Under the pieces are notes generated by a model. That model saw only the letters and a program-made list of their open reading frames with translations. It was not told where the DNA came from and did no database searches. Position numbers and translations under genes: made by a program. From Cellulosilyticum lentocellum DSM 5427 (GTDB lineage: Bacteria; Bacillota; Clostridia; Lachnospirales; Cellulosilyticaceae), in contig NC_015275.1 in NCBI RefSeq assembly GCF_000178835.2, positions 1,571,001 through 1,635,000 on the forward strand: 64,000 nt of DNA, given 5' to 3'. This document shows positions 7,792 to 41,215 of the stretch, piece after piece. Position 1 is the stretch's first letter. Each line of letters begins with the position of its first letter.

Positions 7792-8036
7792 CTTATTCCA
7801 AATCGGCTCCTTTACATAGTAAATAGTAAGGTAATTATAAGATAAAAAATTAATAAATTCAACAAAAAATAGTGTAATACAAAATTTAAAGTTTAGTAAT
7901 AGTGTGCTTTTTGGTATGAAAAAGATATAATTATCTATAATCTTGGAAAAATATAGCTGTGGGTATTTTTTAATAGGTTTTCTACAAAACTTATGTTAAT
8001 ATAATAGTTATCTATAAAATCAAGTAAAGGAATATA

Positions 8037-8996
8037 ATGACCATGGAAAATAATAAACCTTATGCACTTGTATTTGGTATTGCCATATACGATATTTTTG
8101 GTTTTTCTTATGCAACCTATAGACCCTATGATTCTAATCCAGGAAAAGTAAAAGTGTCTTGCGGTGGTGTTTGTAGAAACATTGCAGAAAATATGTCTTT
8201 AGTAGGAACAAATACACAGTTTATTTCTATTTTAGGTGATGATGAAAAAGGCAAAGATATTTTAAGACAAGCTGAAAAAGTAGGCTTAGATATGAGTAAC
8301 ACTTTAATCGTACACGGTGGCTCCACACCTACTTATATGGCCATATTAGATGAAAATGGAGAAATGGTATCAGCCGTGGTTGATACAAAATTAGCTAATG
8401 AGTTTTCAAAGGAAGCTTTAAGTGAGCGTGCTTCTATTATTGAAAATGCAGAATATATGTTTTTAGGTGCAGATAACCCCCCTTTTATTGAGCATATTGT
8501 AACGACTTATCAAGGTAAAACAAAATTTGTTTTAGATCCAGTATCAGCTGCTAAAGCAGCTAGGATTAAACATTTACTTCACTATTTTCATACAGTAAAA
8601 CCTAATAGACATGAAGCAGAAGTGTTATGTGGCTTTGAGGTAAAAACACATGAAGATGCTAGAAAAGCAGGTGCTTACCTAAGAGGTTTAGGTGTACAAA
8701 ATGTATTTATTAGTCTTGATGTAGATGGTGTTTATTATAATGATGGTAAGGAAGAAGGTATTATTAAAGCAAATGCTTTAGAAGTGATTAATGTTACAGG
8801 GGCTGGTGATGCTTTTGTAGCAGGCATTGGAGCAGGGTATATGGCAAATAAAAGTACAGTAGAGATTGTTAAATATGCTATTGCTATGTCTAACATCACG
8901 ATTGCTCATGAAGAAACGATTAATCCTAATATGGCAGCTGATTTAGTAGAAGCTTATGTTAGAGAAGCACAATGGCAATGTACGACATTTGAATAA
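8037..8996 (+). CDS. PfkB-family carbohydrate kinase, probably pseudouridine kinase-like
   Basis: A 319-residue ribokinase-fold sugar/nucleoside kinase. The PfkB signatures are GGVCRNIAENMSLVG (about 42-56) and, near residue 250, NVTGAGDAFVAG, whose Asp is the catalytic base. The N-terminal SNPGKVKVSCGG pattern resembles pseudouridine kinases (PsuK), which phosphorylate pseudouridine to its 5'-monophosphate. No psuG glycosidase gene lies next to it, so the substrate is unproven. It is transcribed divergently from the polyamine operon and alone, with its own terminator downstream. Confidence 0.75.
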   Translation: MTMENNKPYALVFGIAIYDIFGFSYATYRPYDSNPGKVKVSCGGVCRNIAENMSLVGTNTQFISILGDDEKGKDILRQAEKVGLDMSNTLIVHGGSTPTYMAILDENGEMVSAVVDTKLANEFSKEALSERASIIENAEYMFLGADNPPFIEHIVTTYQGKTKFVLDPVSAAKAARIKHLLHYFHTVKPNRHEAEVLCGFEVKTHEDARKAGAYLRGLGVQNVFISLDVDGVYYNDGKEEGIIKANALEVINVTGAGDAFVAGIGAGYMANKSTVEIVKYAIAMSNITIAHEETINPNMAADLVEAYVREAQWQCTTFE

Positions 8997-26152: not shown

Positions 26153-26291
26153 TTGCTCACATCCTTTCTTATTACTAGGTATATGAGATAAGAAGAGAAA
26201 ATATAATAATGCAAATGATTTTATATTACATAAAATAAGCTATAAAATATTGATTATTTGTCTGAAATATGGTAAAGTAAACAAGTGTCAA

Positions 26292-26364
26292 GCTGGCATA
26301 ACTCAGTTGGTAGAGTAACTCATTCGTAATGAGTAAGTCGCGGGTTCGAGTCCCGCTTCCAGCT
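26292..26364 (+). tRNA. tRNA-Thr, anticodon CGU
   Basis: A cloverleaf can be drawn. The acceptor GCTGGCA faces TTCCAGC with one C-T mismatch, the D arm includes CTCAGTTGGTAGAG, and the anticodon stem ACTCA/TGAGT encloses TTCGTAA (anticodon CGT). The T arm is GCGGG-TTCGAGT-CCCGC. CCA is not encoded. The 3' part from 26313 repeats at 40991-41046, which marks this gene as the integration site of the element. The 3' half now in place was probably supplied by the element. Confidence 0.93.
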
Positions 26365-26368
26365 TTAT
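26313..26368 (+). repeat. attL: tRNA-Thr 3' half, left copy of 56-bp direct repeat
   Basis: Runs from GAGTAACTCATTCG in the anticodon arm to CTTTAT just past the tRNA. It matches 40991-41046 at 54 of 56 positions. The two differences are the outer bases of one T-stem pair (C and G here, G and C there). Confidence 0.9.
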
Positions 26369-26562: not shown

Positions 26563-29298
26563 ATGACACAAATGCCAGGGGAACGTCTAGAGGTATTTAT
26601 TAGTTCTGCTATGAATGATGAAAAGGGTACATCTTGGCTAACGATAAGACGTAAGATAAAACAGAAATTGCAAGCAAACGAATACATTAATCCATTTATT
26701 ATTGAAGACCGTAATAGTACTTTACCATCAGTGCAATTTTTTCAATTTATGGTTGCTAAAAGTGATATAGTCATCCTTATTATTAAAGAAGAATTTAGGC
26801 AGGGTACGCAAACTGAATTTTCGGTGGTTAAGGAAAAAAAGAAACCGTGTTTAGTATATATTTATAATGGAAAAAATGCATCGACAGAAGTGGAGGTATT
26901 GAAAGAGGAACTTATTTCAAATGATTACTGTTGTTTTAAGACTTTCTATAGTTTTGATAACCTTGAGGAGGAGATATATGAAGATGTAATGAACGAAGTA
27001 ATTACTAGGTATAAGTTCATGCAATGTTCGAGTATTTCAACGGTTCAAGATAATAGCAAAGGAAATGATTATATAGAAGCACAAATTATTGATTACAATA
27101 AAGATGTTACTATAGAAATAGATGAACTTGAGAATTTTAGTACATGTAAAGGAACAATCTTACAAGTTGATGGACTGAGCCAAAAAAAATTACAAGAAGT
27201 TAATAAAGAACCTAAATCTATACTTGGAAATGTAGGAGAAAAAGTACTTAAGTGGATTTGTTGTGGAGATAATTATTTAGATGACAATGATATTGAAAAA
27301 ATAGTAGAGTTAAAAAATCAAGATAGTAAATATAACTGGTATAAATATCGGTGTCAAGCTATGAAATGCTATATGAATAATATGATTGAAGAAGCACTTG
27401 AGTTTGAAGACAGGGCATTAAGGATAGCAAAAGATGAAAAAGCTGCTGATTGGATTGTCAATGATATATTAATTGATTGTCGAAATCTCAAAAATGAGTT
27501 AAATAGTAAATACCATACATATGATAATCAATATCAAGAAGAGATACAACATTGCAAGGAAATTATACATTTACCTGTAGTGGATAGATTCATGGAGAAT
27601 GCATACAGTTTATTGTTGAAAGAAGAACAGAAATATAGATATAAAAGTGATAAATCAACACTTTTTAGTAATGATATATATCGAATATTTGACAATATTG
27701 AAAATAGCATTTTTGTTGCAATTCTATATGGTTCTAGCACTCCATTAATATTAAGTAGAGGGACAATTTCTGATATATATTTAAAGCTTGGAGATATACA
27801 TGAAGCTCCAGCAATTAGCGTTATAGCTATAAAATACCTTATTTTAGGTGGTGATAGTAAAAGGCTTGAACAAGTTATAAGGAAAGAGTGGGGTAATATA
27901 CAGGAATATCTCATTGCAGATGTAGAAAAGATATATCAATATGTAAAAAAGACTAATATTAATTCATATCAGAGTACAAAAATAAAGGTATTTAAGTTGT
28001 TTGGTTTATATATGCCTGATAAGATATATCAGGATATTCTACAGGATATTATTACTCTAGGTGAAAATATTGATCTTCTCGAAATACCTAACTACATGGA
28101 AGCAATATGTGCTAATAGATGTAGGATTATAGATGATATTTTAATTAAGATAGTAAATATGGCATTAAGAAAATGTCGTGTAAATAATGAGAAAGCAATA
28201 CCTAGAATATTATCAGAGATAGATATTTCTAATGTAGAAGATATGGAATTAGTTAATCTAAAGGACAATCTACAAAATCAGTTGATCAATATGATAAGTT
28301 ATGGAAATGAAATTCAATTTGTTGTAAATTTAGTTAATCAAAGACCTGATATTTTTGGAGCAACAAAGGATATTTTATTAGATAATGCCTCTGAAGTAGA
28401 AAGAACTCTATATAATATTAATTGTAATATTGATATTAAGAAAAATTGGAGAGAATTTTTTATATCAAGTATAGAAAATGCGGAAGAGCAATTTATTGTG
28501 AATAATAAACCTGGGGTAGATATAGGTTTTGGAAGTAGACCATTAATAGATATAGAGAATATATTGGTGAAAAGTCCTACTAACTATATAGCTGATTTAG
28601 TTACCGGTAGGCTTATTCCTTTAGGTAAGAAGATTATTTTAGGTAATGCACCAATTAAAATGAAAGCAGAAAGTATTAGATGTTTGACACAAGCAGTTAT
28701 TGGATTTAGTAAGTATCATATAGAATTTGATTGGAAGAAGGAGTTTGCATGTATTGATAAGAGTGATTGCGAAAAAAATGCTTCCTTGTCTCTATTTGCA
28801 TATAATTCAATAAAATCATATATATTACAGATCATCATGTTCAAAACATTAATAGGACTAGATACAGAAACGGAAATTATGAATTGCTATTTAGAACTGT
28901 TAAGATTAAGTAATTATGAAAGATTAACTATGATACAGAATACATATAATTATATACAATATATGCAGCAGGAAGAAAAGGAAGTCGATAGGATATTTGA
29001 ATATATTAGTATAGCATTATGCAATGATTCAGAGGAGCAAGTGAGAAAGTTTGCATATCAGTGTATTGTTTTGTTAAGTCGTAATAGTGTCAGTCAGGCA
29101 ATTAGAGATAAATATAAGGAACTATTATTAGATCCTTCAGCTGAAATAAAGAATATGGTTTTAAATTTAATAAGAGATAATAAAATAATGAGCAAGGATA
29201 CAATTATGTGTATAAAAGATGTATATGGAAAAGATGCAAATTACTTTATTAAAAAGAAAACTGAAATGATACTTAATGAACTAAGCATGAGAGAATAA
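26563..29298 (+). CDS. TIR/DUF4062-like N-terminal domain fused to long helical-repeat region; candidate defence protein
   Basis: A 911-residue soluble protein, first gene inside attL. Residues ~8-150 form a Rossmann-like domain: LEVFISSAMND at the first strand, SDIVILIIKEEF, and QTEFSVVKEKKKPCLVYIY. This layout is that of TIR and DUF4062 domains, and Glu85 or Glu91 would sit where such domains place their active Glu. The remaining ~750 residues are helical. A TPR-like stretch lies around 265-310, and HEAT-like repeats near the C-terminus (SEEQVRKFAYQCIVLLSR, SAEIKNMVLNLIRDN). A sensor of repeats plus an N-terminal effector is common in anti-phage proteins. No membrane segment. The family is not recognised. 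Very AT-rich, unlike the core genes. Confidence 0.65.
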   Translation: MTQMPGERLEVFISSAMNDEKGTSWLTIRRKIKQKLQANEYINPFIIEDRNSTLPSVQFFQFMVAKSDIVILIIKEEFRQGTQTEFSVVKEKKKPCLVYIYNGKNASTEVEVLKEELISNDYCCFKTFYSFDNLEEEIYEDVMNEVITRYKFMQCSSISTVQDNSKGNDYIEAQIIDYNKDVTIEIDELENFSTCKGTILQVDGLSQKKLQEVNKEPKSILGNVGEKVLKWICCGDNYLDDNDIEKIVELKNQDSKYNWYKYRCQAMKCYMNNMIEEALEFEDRALRIAKDEKAADWIVNDILIDCRNLKNELNSKYHTYDNQYQEEIQHCKEIIHLPVVDRFMENAYSLLLKEEQKYRYKSDKSTLFSNDIYRIFDNIENSIFVAILYGSSTPLILSRGTISDIYLKLGDIHEAPAISVIAIKYLILGGDSKRLEQVIRKEWGNIQEYLIADVEKIYQYVKKTNINSYQSTKIKVFKLFGLYMPDKIYQDILQDIITLGENIDLLEIPNYMEAICANRCRIIDDILIKIVNMALRKCRVNNEKAIPRILSEIDISNVEDMELVNLKDNLQNQLINMISYGNEIQFVVNLVNQRPDIFGATKDILLDNASEVERTLYNINCNIDIKKNWREFFISSIENAEEQFIVNNKPGVDIGFGSRPLIDIENILVKSPTNYIADLVTGRLIPLGKKIILGNAPIKMKAESIRCLTQAVIGFSKYHIEFDWKKEFACIDKSDCEKNASLSLFAYNSIKSYILQIIMFKTLIGLDTETEIMNCYLELLRLSNYERLTMIQNTYNYIQYMQQEEKEVDRIFEYISIALCNDSEEQVRKFAYQCIVLLSRNSVSQAIRDKYKELLLDPSAEIKNMVLNLIRDNKIMSKDTIMCIKDVYGKDANYFIKKKTEMILNELSMRE

Positions 29299-29462: not shown

Positions 29463-30641
29463 TTATAGCGCGCTTAGGGCCTTTTGCAATTTATGAATTG
29501 CATCTTTCTTAGTATCATCAGTAGAGTGTACATAACGATTTAAAGTAATCTTAACATCTGTATGCCCTAATAACTGTGAAACAGTCTTAACATCCACACC
29601 TTGCTCAATAAGCCTTGTAGCAAAGCTATGACGAATACCGTGAAAAGTAATGCCTTTATACTTGATGATAGATTCTCCATTGGAGCCTATTTCAGTATAA
29701 GGGCGTATTTTTGCCTTTTCGCAAAGTAATTTATGGGCTTTGGCAATACTATCATATTTAATCTGGTTGCCTTTGCTATTTTTAAAAACGTAGTCATCAT
29801 CCTGACCATTATGTTCAGCTTTATAGGCTGTAAGTTCTTCTGATAAAGAGGGATGTATCGGTATATCACGTATACCTGCTTTGGTCTTAGGACTCTTAGT
29901 AATAACTTTATCTTCTCCGTTGCCTTCTGAGTCATATTCCTTAACGAGTCTAGAGGATTCTTTTACATGAATCATATGGTCTATTAAATCCACATTATGC
30001 CATTTTAAGGCCATGATCTCACCGACACGCATACCAGTATGGAGTGCTACTGTAAAGAGCATCTTATAGAAACTTTCATTAACCACACCCATAAAAGCTT
30101 TTTGTTCCTCATGAGTTAAGACTTCGATTTCCTTTTCTACATAAGTTGATTTAGGGAGCGTAATCTTTTTCATTGGGTTAATACGAATAAATTGATTGGC
30201 AATGCCGTGATCAAAGGATTGATTCAGTAAATATTTGAGCATAGAAAGACTTTTACTTGATAGTTCAGTTTTACTATTAAAGAATTGCTGCACATCACGT
30301 TGCAATATCTTTTGAATATCACGCTTACCAAGAGCAGAGTCTTTGATATGGGTATTATATAGGCTCATATAGCGTTCAAAGGTGCCAAGGCTAACACTTG
30401 CCTTAGTATTTGTAAATAAGTGGTCATACATCAAATCTGAAAGCGTTATTCGCTTCTTAACGAGTCTAGTGCCATATTTAATAAAATCACTTTCATAATC
30501 ACGAATCTTATCTTCACATTCTTTCTTACTTTTGCCATAAACTGTTTTAGGTTTATAGGAATCTAAGTTGGACTCACCTACCCAACGAACATACGTTGTT
30601 CCGTCTTTTCTCTTATAAGTTCTTTTAAAATAGGTTGCCAT
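29463..30641 (-). CDS. int: Tyrosine-type integrase of the element
   Basis: A 392-residue site-specific recombinase. The N-terminus (TYKRKDGTTYVRWVGES) is an AP2-like arm-binding domain. A core-binding SAM-like domain follows at ~60-165, then the catalytic domain with Arg in TGMRVGEIMALKW, HGIRHSFATRL, LLGHTDVKITLNRY and the Tyr nucleophile in that last motif. It integrates into and excises from the tRNA-Thr repeat described here. It starts 6 bases after the repressor gene and runs toward attL, as in phage satellites. Confidence 0.92.
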   Translation of the reverse strand: MATYFKRTYKRKDGTTYVRWVGESNLDSYKPKTVYGKSKKECEDKIRDYESDFIKYGTRLVKKRITLSDLMYDHLFTNTKASVSLGTFERYMSLYNTHIKDSALGKRDIQKILQRDVQQFFNSKTELSSKSLSMLKYLLNQSFDHGIANQFIRINPMKKITLPKSTYVEKEIEVLTHEEQKAFMGVVNESFYKMLFTVALHTGMRVGEIMALKWHNVDLIDHMIHVKESSRLVKEYDSEGNGEDKVITKSPKTKAGIRDIPIHPSLSEELTAYKAEHNGQDDDYVFKNSKGNQIKYDSIAKAHKLLCEKAKIRPYTEIGSNGESIIKYKGITFHGIRHSFATRLIEQGVDVKTVSQLLGHTDVKITLNRYVHSTDDTKKDAIHKLQKALSAL

Positions 30642-31780: not shown

Positions 31781-33970
31781 TTGAGATTAGAGGAATTACT
31801 ATATAGATTTGAAAAAGTAAAATCGAATGGGGAAAGATCATATATTTGTTGTTGCCCTGCACATCGTGATAAAGAACCGAGTCTATCTATAAAAGAAACA
31901 GATGAACGTATTTTATTACATTGTCATACAGGATGTAGTACTGAAATGGTAATGACAGCAATAGGACTGGAACTTAAAGATTTGTTTAAACAAAATAACA
32001 CCCATACTCTGACCTGGCGGGAGAAAGTAAGGGTGTGGCACGATCCAAAAAAGGGAGAACTTAAATTAGAAGCTCTTTATCCTTATTATGATGATGAATC
32101 GCAACATGTATTGTACTATAAAGCACGATATGAGAACAAGGAAATTCGTCATTTTCGTATAAAAGAAAATGAAGTGATATGGAAAAACGTGTTTAGTTCG
32201 GTTGATAAGACACTTTATAATAAATCAGTTTTTGATAAGGCCATTAAATTACAACAGCCTATTTACTATGTAGAAGGTGAAAAAGATGTTCATACTATGC
32301 AAAACTTAGGTCTTTTAGCGACTACAGCAGGTGGTGCTACTGCATGGAATAAGGTATTTAGCAAGTACTTTGAAAATCTAGATGTCGTTATTCTTCAAGA
32401 TAATGATGAAGCAGGAGAGCAGTTAACGAGGCAGATATGTGCTGATATAGCATCAGTAGCAAAAACGATTAAAGTTGTGATACCAAGTAAAAAACCTCAT
32501 GGCGATGTCACTGATTATTTAGAAGAAGGGCATACAAAATATGAGTTATTACAGTTAGTGGAACAAGTAGAGAAGCAAAAGTTATTAAGCGAGCCCTATA
32601 AAAATTATCGTTTAGATGATACAGATAATGCACAGACCATGGCAGATATGTTTAGAAGTAAACTTTGTTTTGCTTATGATGTGAATAAATGGTATCTCTA
32701 CAATGGTGTGAAGTGGGAAGAAGATCGGGTTGATGGTGTAAGGCTTTTAGCTAATGAAATGATTGATCGTATGAGTAATGACTTTGCTTTGATACTTGGA
32801 AACATGGAAGAGGGCAAAGAAAGGAAAAAACAAGCGGTCTTATATCAAAATCATTTAAAGAGCTGTAGAAGTCATAGAGGAAAAACATCCATTCTTAATG
32901 AAACCAAGCATTTGCTTCCTATTGTATCAACAACCTTTAATAGTAGACGTGATGTGATCAATACGCCAACTGGTACGTACTTGATCCATGATAAAGAGGT
33001 AAGACCACATTGCTATAAAGACTATCTTTCACAAGCAACACAAGTTTCTGTGGTAGAAGATGCAAAAGCACCAACTTGGGAAAGGTTTATTAATGAGATT
33101 TTCTTAGGAGATCAAGAGCTTATTCGTTATGTGCAGAAGGCAATAGGTTATAGTTTGACAGGCTTTACAAGAGAGCAGTGTATGTTTATAGGCTATGGGG
33201 ATGGTGCCAATGGGAAAGGGGTATTTAAGGATATTCTGAGTTATATTTTTGATGACTATGTTAAATGCCCACAAGCAGAGACAATCTCACAAATTAGACA
33301 AGGTTCAGAAGCTAGTCCCGATATTATTAATCTCATGGATGCACGACTTGTAGTATGTGTTGAAAGTAATAAAGGGGTTCGTTTCAATGAAGGACTTATT
33401 AAACAGTTAACAGGAGAGGACAAGGTTACAGCAAGGAGATTGTATTGTGAGCCAATGTCTTTTATGCCACAGTTTAAGCTATGGCTCTTTACAAATCATA
33501 TGCCGGAGGTTGTGGGAACAGATAAAGGGATTTGGAGACGATTAAAAGTCATACCTTTTAAATTAGATTTACCTGAGCATAAAAAGGATAGACAGCTAAA
33601 AGATAAGCTGATGAAAGAAGTAGAAGGTATTTTATGGTGGTGTATTGAAGGGATTCATCTTTATTTAGAAGAAGGACTAAAAGAGCCAGAGGCTATTATT
33701 GAGTTAGTGCATGAATTTAAAGAAGAAAGCGACACGTTAGGGCTTTTTCTTAGAGAATGTACGATTAATAAGGTGGGTTCTAAAGTACAGGCTAAAGACC
33801 TTTATACAAGATATGTGGAATGGTGTAGAGCCAATAATGAAGTGCCAGACAATAAGACAAGGTTTGGCTTAGATATGAAGAAGCGAATCACTAAAGAAAA
33901 CGATGGCAGGCATGTTTTTTATAAAGACATTGCTTTGCTCTTATCAGTCAGTCAATTTGTAAGTGTTTAA
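31781..33970 (+). CDS. P4-type primase-helicase (replication protein of the element)
   Basis: 729 aa. Residues ~20-55 form a zinc-binding primase start (CCCPAH and HCHTGC). A TOPRIM-like region follows with YYVEGEKDVHTM and LQDNDEAG. A D5_N-type region lies in the middle, and the C-terminal superfamily 3 helicase has Walker A GYGDGANGKGVF and ARLVVCVESN as Walker B region. Such proteins start replication of phage satellites and P4-like elements. TTG at 31781 is chosen because AAGGAG lies 8 bases upstream and the frame has no earlier start. Confidence 0.88.
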   Translation: MRLEELLYRFEKVKSNGERSYICCCPAHRDKEPSLSIKETDERILLHCHTGCSTEMVMTAIGLELKDLFKQNNTHTLTWREKVRVWHDPKKGELKLEALYPYYDDESQHVLYYKARYENKEIRHFRIKENEVIWKNVFSSVDKTLYNKSVFDKAIKLQQPIYYVEGEKDVHTMQNLGLLATTAGGATAWNKVFSKYFENLDVVILQDNDEAGEQLTRQICADIASVAKTIKVVIPSKKPHGDVTDYLEEGHTKYELLQLVEQVEKQKLLSEPYKNYRLDDTDNAQTMADMFRSKLCFAYDVNKWYLYNGVKWEEDRVDGVRLLANEMIDRMSNDFALILGNMEEGKERKKQAVLYQNHLKSCRSHRGKTSILNETKHLLPIVSTTFNSRRDVINTPTGTYLIHDKEVRPHCYKDYLSQATQVSVVEDAKAPTWERFINEIFLGDQELIRYVQKAIGYSLTGFTREQCMFIGYGDGANGKGVFKDILSYIFDDYVKCPQAETISQIRQGSEASPDIINLMDARLVVCVESNKGVRFNEGLIKQLTGEDKVTARRLYCEPMSFMPQFKLWLFTNHMPEVVGTDKGIWRRLKVIPFKLDLPEHKKDRQLKDKLMKEVEGILWWCIEGIHLYLEEGLKEPEAIIELVHEFKEESDTLGLFLRECTINKVGSKVQAKDLYTRYVEWCRANNEVPDNKTRFGLDMKKRITKENDGRHVFYKDIALLLSVSQFVSV

Positions 33971-36120: not shown

Positions 36121-37020
36121 TTATGCGTGCTGATCCCAGTATTCTGCTTCTAACTCATTTGGCGTTTTATATCCAATCGCACCGTGGGGAAGACGATTGT
36201 TATATAGATTTTCAATGTACTCGAAAATATCTAGTCGAAGTTCCTCTAGGGTATGATAGCTTCTGCGATTGGTGCGATTCTTTTTGAGATATTTGAAAAA
36301 ACTTTCACAACAAGCATTATCGAAAGGGTATCCTTTTTTAGAAAATGACTGCACAACATTATAGGAATCTAAGAGATTTCTAAATGCAAAAGCAGTATAC
36401 TCAGCTCCCTGGTCAGAGTGAAATATGAGTCCATACTGAACATGACGGCTTTTATAAGCCTTATTAAAAGCTGACATTGTTAAGGTGACATCGTGGTTGC
36501 TAGCTATGTGCCAACCAATGATTTTTCTAGAAAACAAGTCCATGACAATGCAAAGATAATACCATTTACCATTAACTTTTATGTAAGTGAAATCACTAGC
36601 CCAGACAAGATTTGGAGCCTTTTGGTTAAATTCCTGATGGAGGTGATTATCGCATTCTCCCTGATTGTGATGTTTTACTCTACAAGGTTTATCTGTAGAC
36701 ATTTTAGGAAGAGACATTGATTGCATCAGTCGGTACACTCGTCCCACGCTGATGTTTATACCATAATCACGACTGAGGATATATGTAATTTTATAAGCAC
36801 CAAGACATTTATCATAGTCAGAATAAATCTGAAGAATGACACGTTTGATATTTAGATTCTCTTTTACTCTTGGAGCAGGTTCGGAGTTGAAGTGCTTATA
36901 GTAAGTGCTGCGATTTACGTTAAGTACGCGGCAAAGGGTTTTAATATCATGCTGAAAACGTAGTTTATAAACAGCATCTAGTCGCTCAGAGAGTGTGGCG
37001 TGAATATGGCAATCGCTTTT
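36121..37020 (-). CDS. IS3-family transposase OrfB (DDE integrase core)
   Basis: The frame is open for 299 codons from just after the poly-A run shared with orfA. It starts with an HTH_21-like part (HATLSERLDAVYKLRFQHDI, LCRVLNVNRSTYYKHF) and continues with the rve core: VWASDFTYIKV with the first Asp, LIFHSDQGAEYTA with the second, and NACCESFFKYLK with the Glu. It ends NELEAEYWDQHA. There is no ATG near its start, so it depends on ribosomal frameshifting from orfA. A GTG at 36747 would give only a truncated protein. Confidence 0.8.
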   Translation of the reverse strand, partial: KSDCHIHATLSERLDAVYKLRFQHDIKTLCRVLNVNRSTYYKHFNSEPAPRVKENLNIKRVILQIYSDYDKCLGAYKITYILSRDYGINISVGRVYRLMQSMSLPKMSTDKPCRVKHHNQGECDNHLHQEFNQKAPNLVWASDFTYIKVNGKWYYLCIVMDLFSRKIIGWHIASNHDVTLTMSAFNKAYKSRHVQYGLIFHSDQGAEYTAFAFRNLLDSYNVVQSFSKKGYPFDNACCESFFKYLKKNRTNRRSYHTLEELRLDIFEYIENLYNNRLPHGAIGYKTPNELEAEYWDQHA

Positions 37021-37261
37021 TTAATATGAGGTTCTCTTCCTCAAGTTGAGCCATTCTTTTTTGCATTTCTTTAATTTGTTTAGCAGTTAGGACTTTGCCA
37101 TCATCGGTTTCAACAGTAGAATATTGTTTAATCCATTTAGCGAGAGAAGTCTGTGAAATATCATATTCTTGGCAGAGAGAAGTCTGAGTTTTGCCATTAT
37201 GATAAAGTGCAACGATTGATTTTTTAAAATCTTCATCATAACGAGTTTGTTTAGTTGCCAT
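36986..37261 (-). CDS. IS3-family transposase OrfA
   Basis: 91 aa. An HTH (DEDFKKSIVALYHNGKTQTSLCQEYDISQTSLAKWIKQY) is followed by a leucine-zipper-like helix (IKEMQKRMAQLEEENLILKK). The family usually continues LKKAIAIF after this helix. Here the frame turns into RLPYSRHTL and stops. The family sequence is found in the next frame, right after a run of six As (37017-37022). This suggests loss of one A in the slippery run, so this copy may be poorly active. Confidence 0.8.
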   Translation of the reverse strand: MATKQTRYDEDFKKSIVALYHNGKTQTSLCQEYDISQTSLAKWIKQYSTVETDDGKVLTAKQIKEMQKRMAQLEEENLILKKRLPYSRHTL

Positions 37262-37559
37262 GTGGGCACCTCCTTTTGTGTCTACTTTAATATAATCACT
37301 AATATCAAATCGTGTCTACTTATTTAATATAGATCCATATAGAGCTAATGGCTATATATGATATAGCATAACATTATAAGAATACTATTTGATTTTGATT
37401 TTGATTTTGTAAAATATACTTAAATATTAGAATTTACATTTGCGAAAATTGAATATAAATGACAAAAAGCGACAATAATTTGAAACACTAATATGCTATA
37501 TTAATGGTATAAAGAAATGATAACTTTGATATATAAAGTATGGAAAAAGGAGTGTTAAA

Positions 37560-39581
37560 ATGAATGCTAAAATGAATGAGTCAGATATTGAAGTTTTGAT
37601 AGATGAAATAAACACTGTAATGGAAATTAAAAAGGAAAATAAAGGATATAAGATGATTGAAAATATTTTGATGGCATATAAGAGAAGACTAAAAGATATA
37701 AAAAGGATACTTACTAAAAAAGAGTATAAATTAGTTTTTATTGGTTCACCTGGAGATGGAAAGACTACTGCGATTTGTAACTTATTGAATCTTTTAGAAA
37801 AGGAAAAAGGAGGGAAAAAATTAGATGAGATTTCTTTACTCTCCGTAGGTGGAGGAAGAACTACTATAGCTGATGTTAAGATAAGAAAGACATCTGGTAA
37901 AACAAGTATTATTATTGAACCTAGATCGGAACAGGTACAAAATAATTTGATAAGTGATTTTTGTAGATATTATTTATCTAAGAAAAGAAAGCAAGATATT
38001 TATAATCAAGAGGATAAATATATTAACAAAAATGTAGATTTAGATGAGGTAGAACATTCATCTGAAATTTTAAGATGCATAAGAAATATGGCAGGATTCT
38101 CCAGCGAAAATCAAGTTATAGAATATATTAAAAATGAAGATATTAAAACTAATGATGAATTTGAAAAATGTATTTTAAAGAGAATTGGTTTAGAAAAAAG
38201 AAAAGATAATAAGATTGAATTTAACGAAGAAGATTTTTGTGTATGGTTAAAGCGAGAGTTTAATAGAATAAATTTTGGATACAATGAAAAAATAAGTATT
38301 CCAGAAAAGATTAATATTTTAATTAATGAAAAAGATTATAATTTAAAACTTGCATCTTATATTAAAGAAATAATTGATACTAGGGGAATTGATTCTAGTA
38401 GTAGGGATGGTTTATACAATTATTTATTTCAAGAAGATACTATTTGTATTTTGACTGATCGATATGAACATGCTCCTAAAGCAGAGAATAAAGAAATCCT
38501 TTCAAAATGGATATTAAAAGAAAATAAAGATGTCATTGGAAAAACAGCGTTAACAGTACTATATAGAAAAGGTGAGTTATCAACAGTAAATGAATGCAAC
38601 AATGATGAAAATGAAGGTGAACGTATAAAAAGAGAAGAAATGGAGCAAATGATAGATAATCCACATACTCCATTAAATTATAATAGTGAAAATACTATTT
38701 TTATTAACCCATGTTCTTGTTATAAAATTAATAAAACTGAAGAAGAAAAAAGGATTGATGGTAAAATAAGGCTTGTCGAAAAATCAATAGTTGATAAATA
38801 TTATTCTGAAATTGCAGAACAAAATAATAGAGATTTTTTTGAATGTATAAATAATATTATTATAAGAAATAGAAATAGATTACTCAAAGAATGTGACAAG
38901 ATCAAAGAGAATATAGATAGTTTAGTGAGTAAGAATACATTAGAATTAAATACAAAAGAACAACAAGAATTAGACATAATTGCACAAGCGATTACGGATG
39001 CGACTAAAATAGCACTAGATGCAGATTATGGTTTTGAGGGAAAGTTTTATAATATTTTACAGCAATACTACTATAGTACTTTAAGAGCATTATCCATAAG
39101 ATATGGTGGAATTAATCCATATACGTGCTCTAGAGATGATAAGGGTAAAGATTATTATCATTATCGAAACAATATTTATGATGAGACAGAAATTAGTGTA
39201 AAAAATCAATTGCTTGAAAATATTAAGCAAGCAAAGTCTTTAATAGATTTAAAGTTGGCTGCTACTACAGACGATTTTGTAAAAACATTAACGGATGGTT
39301 TTACCTTAATTATTAATGAAAAATATTTACAAATGTTAAATGAAATTTCATTAAATAGATATAATGATATGTTGAAGATATTTACTCCTCTTGATGATAC
39401 AAATCACTTTTGGAAAAGAGTAGATGAAAGAGTAAGAGAAGGGGGCAGAGGAGTTAAAAATGACGTTATTGATATTTATAAACAACATATAAGATTACAA
39501 CAAATGGATGAGGTTTTCAAAAAAGGGACATTGGAGGAACTAAAGATATTTTTTAAATATATTAGTGATCTTTTTGTTTAG
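37560..39581 (+). CDS. P-loop NTPase, candidate defence protein paired with DUF4062 protein
   Basis: A 673-residue soluble protein. After a helical start it has Walker A GSPGDGKTT (62-70), then SLLSVGGGRTTIADVKI (about 90-110), like a switch region, and IIIEPRSEQ. TICILTDRYEHAP near residue 300 may hold Walker B. The C-terminal half is helical, with many charged residues. It does not look like AbiEii, SMC or a restriction NTPase, and I do not recognise the family. It has an AAAGGAG site and its own promoter region. The next gene (DUF4062) starts 71 bases downstream, so the two form an operon beside attR. AT content and codon use match the 26563 gene. Confidence 0.6.
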   Translation: MNAKMNESDIEVLIDEINTVMEIKKENKGYKMIENILMAYKRRLKDIKRILTKKEYKLVFIGSPGDGKTTAICNLLNLLEKEKGGKKLDEISLLSVGGGRTTIADVKIRKTSGKTSIIIEPRSEQVQNNLISDFCRYYLSKKRKQDIYNQEDKYINKNVDLDEVEHSSEILRCIRNMAGFSSENQVIEYIKNEDIKTNDEFEKCILKRIGLEKRKDNKIEFNEEDFCVWLKREFNRINFGYNEKISIPEKINILINEKDYNLKLASYIKEIIDTRGIDSSSRDGLYNYLFQEDTICILTDRYEHAPKAENKEILSKWILKENKDVIGKTALTVLYRKGELSTVNECNNDENEGERIKREEMEQMIDNPHTPLNYNSENTIFINPCSCYKINKTEEEKRIDGKIRLVEKSIVDKYYSEIAEQNNRDFFECINNIIIRNRNRLLKECDKIKENIDSLVSKNTLELNTKEQQELDIIAQAITDATKIALDADYGFEGKFYNILQQYYYSTLRALSIRYGGINPYTCSRDDKGKDYYHYRNNIYDETEISVKNQLLENIKQAKSLIDLKLAATTDDFVKTLTDGFTLIINEKYLQMLNEISLNRYNDMLKIFTPLDDTNHFWKRVDERVREGGRGVKNDVIDIYKQHIRLQQMDEVFKKGTLEELKIFFKYISDLFV

Positions 39582-39652
39582 TGAGGTATTTTTTTAATAC
39601 ATTAGATTGAAAATACAATATATGTGGATATATTAAATAAGTTAAGGAAGAG

Positions 39653-40633
39653 ATGGAAAGTAAAATGGCTATTCCAAGAGTGTTTGTGAGTTCAACTTGT
39701 TATGATTTAAAGTATATAAGGGAAAATATAAAATATTTTATAAGGACAATTGGGTATGAACCTATATTAAGTGAAGAAGGAGATGTTTTCTATAATCCTT
39801 TGATACATACACATGATTCATGTATAGAAGAAGTAAAAAATTGCCAAATTTTTGTACTAATAATAGGAGGGAGATATGGGGGGAAATATAACCAAACAGA
39901 GATATCAATCACTAATATGGAATATAATAAAGCTGTAGAAATTGGTTTGCCTATATTTGCATTAGTAGAACAATCTGTTTATTCAGAACATCATCTGTAT
40001 ACGATAAATTGTAAAAAAAACGAAAGTATATGTCAAAAGATAGAATATCCATCGGTTGACAATATAGCTATATTTAAATTTCTTGATAAAGTCCGTAAGA
40101 ACTCAGTTAATAATGCAATTTTTGCATTTAAGGATTTTTCTGATATTGAGGCATATTTAAAGAAGCAATGGGCGGGCATGATGTATAGTTTCTTATCTAA
40201 CAATAAGCAAGTAAAAACTGTTACTGGATTGTTTGAAAGTATTTCTGATGCTACAAAAAGGATTGAGCTGTTTACTAAAGAAATCGCTAAGCATGCTGGA
40301 AATGAGACAACTCAGGCAAATATTGAAATATATGATGCAATCTTTAAATGTGATGTTATAAGAACTATGACATTGTGGAAAATAGTCCCCACTCCTGAAA
40401 GAATATTAAAGAATGAGACATTTGATGAGTTTTGTAATAATGAGTTACAAATATTTGATGAGGATAATGAAGAGATGTTAAACACAATTATTGAGGGAGG
40501 CCCACCATATCAGATAGGTGCTTCACGTTGTTATGAGAATAGGAAACAATATGATGAGTTAAGAAGTAAGATATTAAGTATTCTTGAGAATAGAAAAATA
40601 GATAAAGATGAATACATAAAAACGAATATTTAG
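39653..40633 (+). CDS. DUF4062 domain protein, candidate defence effector
   Basis: A 326-residue protein. The N-terminal ~105 residues are a clear DUF4062 domain: PRVFVSSTCYDLKYIRENI, then SCIEEVKNCQIFVLIIGGRYG (residues ~56-76), YNQTEISITNMEYNKAVEIG with Glu83 and Glu90, and FALVEQ. DUF4062 is TIR-like in fold and often found in bacterial immune genes. The C-terminal region is helical, with an ending (GGPPYQIGASRCYENRKQYDEL) that I do not recognise. Downstream of the NTPase gene by 71 bases. ATG at 39653 or 39665 are both possible. It is the last gene before attR. Confidence 0.75.
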   Translation: MESKMAIPRVFVSSTCYDLKYIRENIKYFIRTIGYEPILSEEGDVFYNPLIHTHDSCIEEVKNCQIFVLIIGGRYGGKYNQTEISITNMEYNKAVEIGLPIFALVEQSVYSEHHLYTINCKKNESICQKIEYPSVDNIAIFKFLDKVRKNSVNNAIFAFKDFSDIEAYLKKQWAGMMYSFLSNNKQVKTVTGLFESISDATKRIELFTKEIAKHAGNETTQANIEIYDAIFKCDVIRTMTLWKIVPTPERILKNETFDEFCNNELQIFDEDNEEMLNTIIEGGPPYQIGASRCYENRKQYDELRSKILSILENRKIDKDEYIKTNI

Positions 40634-40990
40634 GAATAAAGATTATACTATTATTTGCATTTAGTGGTTCACCTATTAGGGGTGAACTGCAAATATTATT
40701 GTAAATAAATATCCATGATTTAAAGTGAGTAATGAAAGAGAAAAAATAAGAAAGTAGGTATTTTAAATACTTGAAAGATATAGTGTTCTATTGAATATTA
40801 AGGACTTTATTAGAATACATTTTCCGTTCTCTCAAAGTAAAATCATTAGCTGAATTTTTACAGTATATTTACAGTAAAAGGGTTACAAATAATATTAATA
40901 GTAGAAGATAAGTATAGAAAAAGTAGCCTTCAAGTATTGAAATTAAGGGATTTGAAGAGATATCAATACTTTTGTGCTAATATCTGTTTT
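40634..40990. other. Right-end non-coding region of the element with putative integrase arm sites
   Basis: No gene is visible in this AT-rich stretch. It holds TTTACAGT at 40857 and 40868 and GTTACAA at 40882, in the same orientation as the TTTACAGT cluster at 26407-26440. An inverted TATTTGCA... TGCAAATATT pair near 40651-40698 around GGTGAAC repeats may act as a terminator for the DUF4062 gene. Confidence 0.5.
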
Positions 40991-41046
40991 GAGTAACTCA
41001 TTCGTAATGAGTAAGTCGGGGGTTCGAGTCCCCCTTCCAGCTTTAT
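40991..41046 (+). repeat. attR: displaced tRNA-Thr 3' half, right copy of 56-bp repeat
   Basis: Matches attL at 54 of 56 positions. The acceptor 5' strand and D arm are missing, so it is not a tRNA gene. The T stem reads GGGGG/CCCCC here against GCGGG/CCCGC in attL. It is probably the original chromosomal 3' end pushed away by the insertion. Confidence 0.9.
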
Positions 41047-41125
41047 TGAAGCTTCCAAGGTGATTGATGAAAGTAAAATTGAAGCTTATACGTAAGAATA
41101 TACGTAACAGAAAGCTTAATACATA

Positions 41126-41170
41126 AAAATAACGAGCATACGTAAGTTAGATACGTATGCTCGTTATTTT
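41126..41170 (+). terminator. Perfect 19-bp terminator hairpin, probably the original tRNA-Thr terminator
   Basis: AAAATAACGAGCATACGTA and its exact complement flank a 7-base loop. No gene just upstream needs it. It sits 80 bases after attR, where the tRNA-Thr transcript would have ended before the element entered. Confidence 0.75.
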
Positions 41171-41215
41171 ATTTAGCGACTCTATAACATCTTTTTTGTT
41201 TTTTTGGTTGTTTTT

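Follow-up and report, generated by a model that had tools for sequence, protein, structure and literature searches.

Among bacterial dynamin-like proteins, LeoA, LeoB and LeoC are reportedly dynamins with phage or island links, and in McrBC a nucleotide-hydrolysing switch, the AAA+ protein McrB, is paired with a nuclease. According to recent reports, DUF4062 proteins act as NADases, both in bacteria and within the human RNA vault. A 2026 preprint describes one of them, Swarozyc (KpSwz), as a TIR-like NADase that the phage portal triggers and that protects E. coli from phages via NAD+ depletion; it also states that TIR-like domains need oligomerisation, that an E97A construct of KpSwz was used for structures, and that DUF4062 genes in some cases share an operon with other genes, including diverse enzymes (PMC13174449). 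Two features are given for a further group, the DO-GTPases: a Walker B motif with a conserved Glu, and a GAP1 partner (PMC7159879). Here we describe two adjacent genes, one for a predicted dynamin-like nucleoside triphosphatase (NTPase) and one for a DUF4062 protein, at the right-hand edge of an element integrated at tRNA-Thr in a 64,000-nucleotide stretch of Cellulosilyticum lentocellum DSM 5427 (contig NC_015275.1, positions 1,571,001 to 1,635,000), the whole of which we call the window. We think it probable that these are two adjacent, separable defence cargo genes, and the dynamin-like family, with its alternative outputs, is a more interesting find than the window pair. The features of the pair, numbered from the first letter of the window, are:

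37560-39581, + strand: dynamin-like NTPase (probably a GTPase), 673 residues; open reading frame (ORF) call, conserved motifs, AlphaFold2 model, Foldseek
37743-37769, + strand: its G1 motif
37848-37865, + strand: its G2 motif, GGGRTT
38376-38387, + strand: its G3 motif, DTRG
39607-39634, + strand: promoter-like site in the intergenic gap, TTGAAA-16-TATATT, 10/12 matches, suggestive
39653-40633, + strand: predicted DUF4062 TIR-like NADase (Swarozyc-type), 326 residues; PF13271, KpSwz PDB match, alignment, model and Foldseek
39920-39922, + strand: codon of the putative catalytic Glu, E90, of the DUF4062 gene
40664-40690, + strand: terminator-like hairpin 3' of the DUF4062 gene

A first-pass annotation had read the pair as a candidate for an undescribed two-gene defence system, located where a mobile element ends at attR. 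Its ORFs on one strand, their coordinates and the 71-base gap are confirmed by the ORF list, and so is the DUF4062 domain: PF13271 matches the 326-residue protein at 3.6e-25 (88.4 bits against a curated cut-off of 24.7 bits). The DUF4062 gene probably begins at the ATG at 39665, which would make the gap 83 bases: in most aligned relatives the first residue is the M corresponding to M5. When a six-row profile was searched against the PDB, KpSwz was the best match (1.8e-8), followed by human TEP1 (0.0031), the KpSwz match being limited to profile residues 7-108. The glutamate E90, within SITNxE, is invariant in 6/6 rows of one alignment and 12/12 rows of another; its column holds Glu in TEP1 and Ala in the KpSwz chain, which fits the E97A mutation (numbering deduced). 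These alignments identify E90 as the predicted catalytic residue, in place of Glu83, which had been proposed as a key residue and is not conserved. The AlphaFold2 model of the protein (predicted local distance difference test score, pLDDT, 75.4; predicted template modelling score, pTM, 0.52) has a predicted TIR-like fold, and its Foldseek matches include TIR-STING (3.4e-4), plant TIR domains (2e-3) and SARM1 (about 1e-2). Only two matches reach E<=0.001, the top rows being mostly TIR domains and nucleoside deoxyribosyltransferases, and the 50 matches listed (library to April 2026) include no KpSwz structure.

The window protein is like KpSwz in its DUF4062 domain, its conserved predicted catalytic Glu, its length of about 326 residues and its arrangement of an N-terminal TIR-like domain with a C-terminal part. 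It differs in that this C-terminal part, of about 200 residues, has no KpSwz sequence match beyond about residue 108 and is not recognisably the portal-binding (helix-turn-helix, HTH, or winged) domain of KpSwz. We place the 326-residue protein among the Swarozyc-type DUF4062 TIR-like NADases, and infer that it splits NAD+ and does so in response to some phage component.

The 673-residue protein carries the Walker A motif GSPGDGKTT at residues 62-70, as first noted, and GGGRTT at residues 97-102; a G3 motif, DTRG, follows at residues 273-276, separated from it by a mostly helical insert of about residues 124-247. GGGRTT, which could not initially be placed in a known family, likely represents G2/switch I in a dynamin-like G domain. 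Invariant in 18/18 aligned rows are G62, G65, G67 and K68 of the P-loop, G99 and T102 of G2, and D273, T274 and G276 of G3. An AlphaFold2 model (pLDDT 74.4, pTM 0.69) shows a G domain and a helical region from residue 408, and all 47 of the Foldseek matches to the PDB at E<=0.001 belong to the dynamin superfamily, the best being CjDLP (7.2e-9), SynDLP (1.8e-8), BDLP (2.4e-8) and LeoA (5.1e-5). Pfam Dynamin_N also speaks for this superfamily, though weakly, scoring below its cut-off in four relatives (L019, 0.0057; L023, 0.0034; L037, 5.5e-4; L038, 0.003). We therefore predict that the NTPase is a divergent member of the dynamin-like proteins. It resembles CjDLP1/2, SynDLP, BDLP, IniA and LeoA in its predicted G1-G2-G3 domain and long helical region, and differs from bacterial dynamin-like proteins in having no Dynamin_N match, a long G2-G3 insert and no canonical G4. 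Its family differs from them further in lacking a strongly hydrophobic segment and in including relatives with HTH fusions and nuclease partners. A search of the window with the family's own hidden Markov model found no second member, other dynamin types not being searched for.

Several other identities were considered for this protein and rejected. No family in Pfam or NCBIfam exceeds its cut-off, and only weak matches were found in PADLOC (best 0.016) and PHROGs (best 0.059), so that a housekeeping family is not indicated. LeoABC is not matched, the PADLOC LeoA hit (E 0.016) covering residues 14-81 only. RecD, DNA2 helicase and signal recognition particle-type GTPase matches involve mostly the P-loop region: NCBIfam recD matches residues 13-95 only (3e-4, 19.5 bits against 310), PDB sequence matches are confined to residues 33-80, and in the fold search every match at E<=0.001 belongs to the dynamin superfamily. 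DO-GTPase/GAP1 systems are alike as GTPase-centred bacterial systems with variable effectors, but the dynamin-like family instead has a G3 of the form DT[RK]GI without the conserved Glu, and this identity was rejected against their description (PMC7159879).

Relatives of the dynamin-like protein were found in 4/96 kin genomes (own included), on 11 plasmid records and at 19 loci on genome contigs; by taxon, in 2/391 genomes of the class (own included), 1/348 of the window's phylum (own only), 5/292 of the phylum of the L022 genome and 3/296 of that of the L024 genome (those two genomes included). Besides the window there are 35 distinct loci, of which 33 are rows of the tree and two are fragments (L018/L040 and L082). 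Searches for NTPase relatives by tblastn in phages and with NTPase queries in viral contigs gave no useful relatives, and blastn in E. coli genomes led nowhere.

At eight of the 35 loci (L005, L022, L024 and L079-L083) a PD-(D/E)XK gene of about 245 residues lies directly downstream of the dynamin-like gene and in the same orientation. HSDR_N_2 matches five of the nuclease partners tested, over its cut-off for L022 and L079 and below it for L005, L024 and L083, and residues E47, D78, E101 and K103 (L022 numbering) are invariant in 8/8. This pair, in which the two genes overlap or are separated by 0-102 bases, is seen repeatedly in cyanobacteria and Bacteroidota. It is a better conserved candidate for a two-gene system than the window pair. 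No nuclease remnant was found in the window (best E 0.29). The likeness to McrBC concerns this nuclease-paired branch only, as the AAA+ protein McrB does not have the dynamin fold and the window has no nuclease.

In a 34-row tree, the nuclease-paired members of full length, seven in number, group on a single fork (99/98), and the 17 members classed as HTH-fused require a single change, i.e. one branch. The latter group was set by length and annotation and checked with Pfam afterwards; 16/17 pass the HTH cut-off and L007 fails (19.1 against 27). These members come mainly from proteobacteria and the fused domain is of the XRE type, which binds DNA. The window protein occupies a branch of its own outside both groups. 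A further possible output is seen at L025, a Calothrix contig, where an ORF at 7923-8459, 36 bases after the dynamin-like gene, has a partial match to a CHAT (caspase-like) domain.

The first-pass annotation had taken both genes to be defence cargo. This is supported in part: for the DUF4062 gene by the antiphage NADases described in the Swarozyc preprint (PMC13174449), and for the NTPase by the neighbours of some relatives. These are, by PADLOC, PtuA of Septu (L008), GajA/GajB of Gabija (L010), HamA of Hachiman (L011), Argonaute (L043), an Argonaute-associated REase-TIR (L027), and AbiU with a DrmD-like helicase (L033). The loci were picked by eye, seven in number and without a control set; six gave strong defence matches and the seventh, L037, a weak one. 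Several nuclease-paired loci stand, as judged by eye, in housekeeping-like surroundings, L079, L081 and L084 being among the loci so placed.

Conserved co-occurrence, named beforehand as the test of a single two-gene system, was examined by scanning the ORFs of fetched loci with three profiles (dynamin-like protein, DUF4062 domain, nuclease), with near-identical or re-fetched loci counted once. A DUF4062 gene adjoins none of the 35 other dynamin-like loci, and a dynamin-like gene adjoins none of the 41 other DUF4062 loci, 35 of which were recognised by our own profile and six (L050, L058, L059, L060, L066 and L070) by PF13271 only. A DUF4062 protein is encoded somewhere in 6/25 of the genomes or records that carry a dynamin-like gene, and never in the fetched dynamin-like locus. 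Viral contigs contributed 12 loci (11 distinct) with DUF4062 relatives and without a dynamin-like gene; a single-protein DUF4062 query in these contigs led nowhere. Among them is the closest full-length relative, L088 (43% identity over residues 5-326), whose DUF4062 gene stands alone, both adjoining ORFs being on the opposite strand; at L096 and L099 close co-oriented neighbours of other kinds lie beside it. Two records named 'Acinetobacter phage MD-2021a' (L014, CAKLQH020000040, and L015, CAKLQF020000019) have chromosomal genes around the DUF4062 gene (an oxidoreductase, glycerate kinase and EntF) and look like host contigs filed as phage.

We therefore found no conserved pairing among the loci searched, and the claim of one two-gene system failed this test. 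That of an undescribed system is upheld for one half only: the dynamin-like family is undescribed as far as four family libraries and a literature search go, that search, of incomplete coverage and made on titles and abstract openings, having found no dynamin-like protein with an HTH fusion or PD-(D/E)XK partner, whereas the DUF4062 half is already described. Under the separable reading, the C-terminal part of the DUF4062 protein would sense some component of the phage, which in the single case studied is a portal protein; on sensing, the TIR-like domains would be re-oriented within an oligomer and E90 would be used to split NAD+, halting the infected cell. The soluble dynamin-like protein would switch states via nucleotide binding and self-assembly; here it would most likely act alone as an intracellular sensor or switch, since its relatives join such a switch to a PD-(D/E)XK gene or a fused XRE-type domain. 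Separability is also favoured by a possible promoter of the DUF4062 gene's own: the gap site is the only + strand promoter-like site with at least 10/12 matches in 37250-41200, and it is only suggestive, as promoter-like sites across the region (28 against 31.1 in shuffles) show no excess.

Several observations weigh against this reading. The two genes may plausibly be co-transcribed, as they are co-oriented and 71-83 bases apart, and a terminator-like site follows only the second gene, with none found between them. Most of the DUF4062 loci taken from genome searches carry only 1.5 kb of flanking sequence, which is also scant at L028 and L030. The window protein lies on a long branch (1.9) with a best identity of 27% to any tree row, so there may be a rare, lineage-specific pairing. 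As to the fold, Foldseek TM-scores are low (0.18-0.32 by query), Pfam Dynamin_N is not found in the 673-residue protein, and L025 is just over the cut-off for AAA_22 instead (27.2 against 27). The canonical G4, the guanine-specificity motif [NT]KxD, is missing where it would be expected, beyond residue 334; a loose pattern matches only at 52, 217, 391 and 524, and a GTP preference is accordingly only putative. Not all members of the superfamily carry this motif: the same Foldseek match list includes EHD4 with ADP.

A coupled system, in which the dynamin-like protein is the sensor or oligomer platform that clusters a DUF4062 NADase, the NADase having replaced the nuclease in an effector swap, seems to us rather unlikely. 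Adjacency and common orientation speak for it, as do the need of TIR-like domains for oligomerisation and the operons said to be shared by some DUF4062 genes and diverse enzymes, both as given in PMC13174449. The nuclease gene directly downstream in 8/35 loci suggests that a downstream effector is a recurrent design of the family; such neighbours, together with TIR-like enzymes switched by oligomerisation, lend coupling some plausibility, and a rare, young pairing would look identical. Set against this are the want of a second example (0/35 and 0/41), the DUF4062 protein's own C-terminal part of about 200 residues, the occurrence of its relatives without a dynamin-like gene, and the lack of detectable homology between it and the nuclease partner (0.1 bits in a search for a shared region). 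Nor do we think it likely that the whole family is a modular immune switch, in which self-assembly of a soluble dynamin-like NTPase, driven by nucleotide, would fire whatever output is attached, be it a nuclease, an HTH domain or, here, a TIR-like NADase brought into its active form by clustering; if true, it would make dynamin a prokaryotic immune sensor and not a membrane remodeller. A DUF4062 member beside an oligomerising NTPase is in any case a natural test of partner gating of such NADases.

Two further explanations concern the dynamin-like gene only, and both are very unlikely in our estimate. The predicted fold, and the delay of phage lysis by B. subtilis DynA recorded in PMC8844932, would suit a membrane-guarding dynamin of the DynA type that delays lysis and is unrelated to the NADase; but a strongly hydrophobic segment is absent from all 34 members examined (top 19-residue Kyte-Doolittle means of 0.76-1.57), and HTH fusions and nuclease partners suggest DNA, not membrane. 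A role in regulating or maintaining mobile elements, in place of defence, would account for the HTH fusions (over the Pfam cut-off in 16/34 tree members, below it in L007), for the window gene's place in an element and for relatives on plasmids in 11 records, but the window member has no HTH match and several members adjoin known defence genes. We retain the interpretation of two separable cargo genes as the probable one, and note that a family of soluble dynamin-like proteins, some fused to HTH domains and others paired with nucleases, would widen the known roles of dynamins.

The element itself is about 14.7 kb long and bounded by 56-bp tRNA-Thr direct repeats (54/56 identical, 14,678 bp apart), which bears out the attR-edge position of the pair; G+C over the cargo drops to 0.24-0.28. 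Its other features are:

26291-26365, + strand: intact tRNA-Thr (CGT), left end of the element
26313-26368: attL, 56-bp repeat inside and just past the intact tRNA-Thr
26563-29298, + strand: left-edge cargo, 911 residues, weak DUF4062-like N terminus; PF13271 22.4 bits, cut-off 24.7, E 1.4e-4
29463-30641, - strand: tyrosine integrase of the element; PF00589 3.9e-30
31781-33970: D5-type primase protein inside the element
36121-37261, - strand: insertion-sequence transposase ORFs directly upstream of the right-edge cargo; rve PF00665 2.1e-25, HTH_Tnp_1 3.1e-13
40991-41046, + strand: attR, 56-bp direct repeat (3' tRNA-Thr end), 54/56 identical to attL

A congeneric search with the right flank for an empty site gave, outside the own genome, only 52- and 39-base matches. 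The two att differences (26341/26355 against 41019/41033) resemble a compensatory swap of one T-arm stem base pair, C-G in the intact tRNA-Thr and G-C in attR, and so the two ends apparently derive from slightly different tRNA genes. The 911-residue left-edge protein has no match to our own DUF4062 profile at E<=1 and no relative among plasmids or in the PDB; its long C-terminal part is possibly HEAT-like (HEAT E 0.049, below cut-off), and with its weak DUF4062-like N terminus it is perhaps a second TIR-like defence gene of the element.

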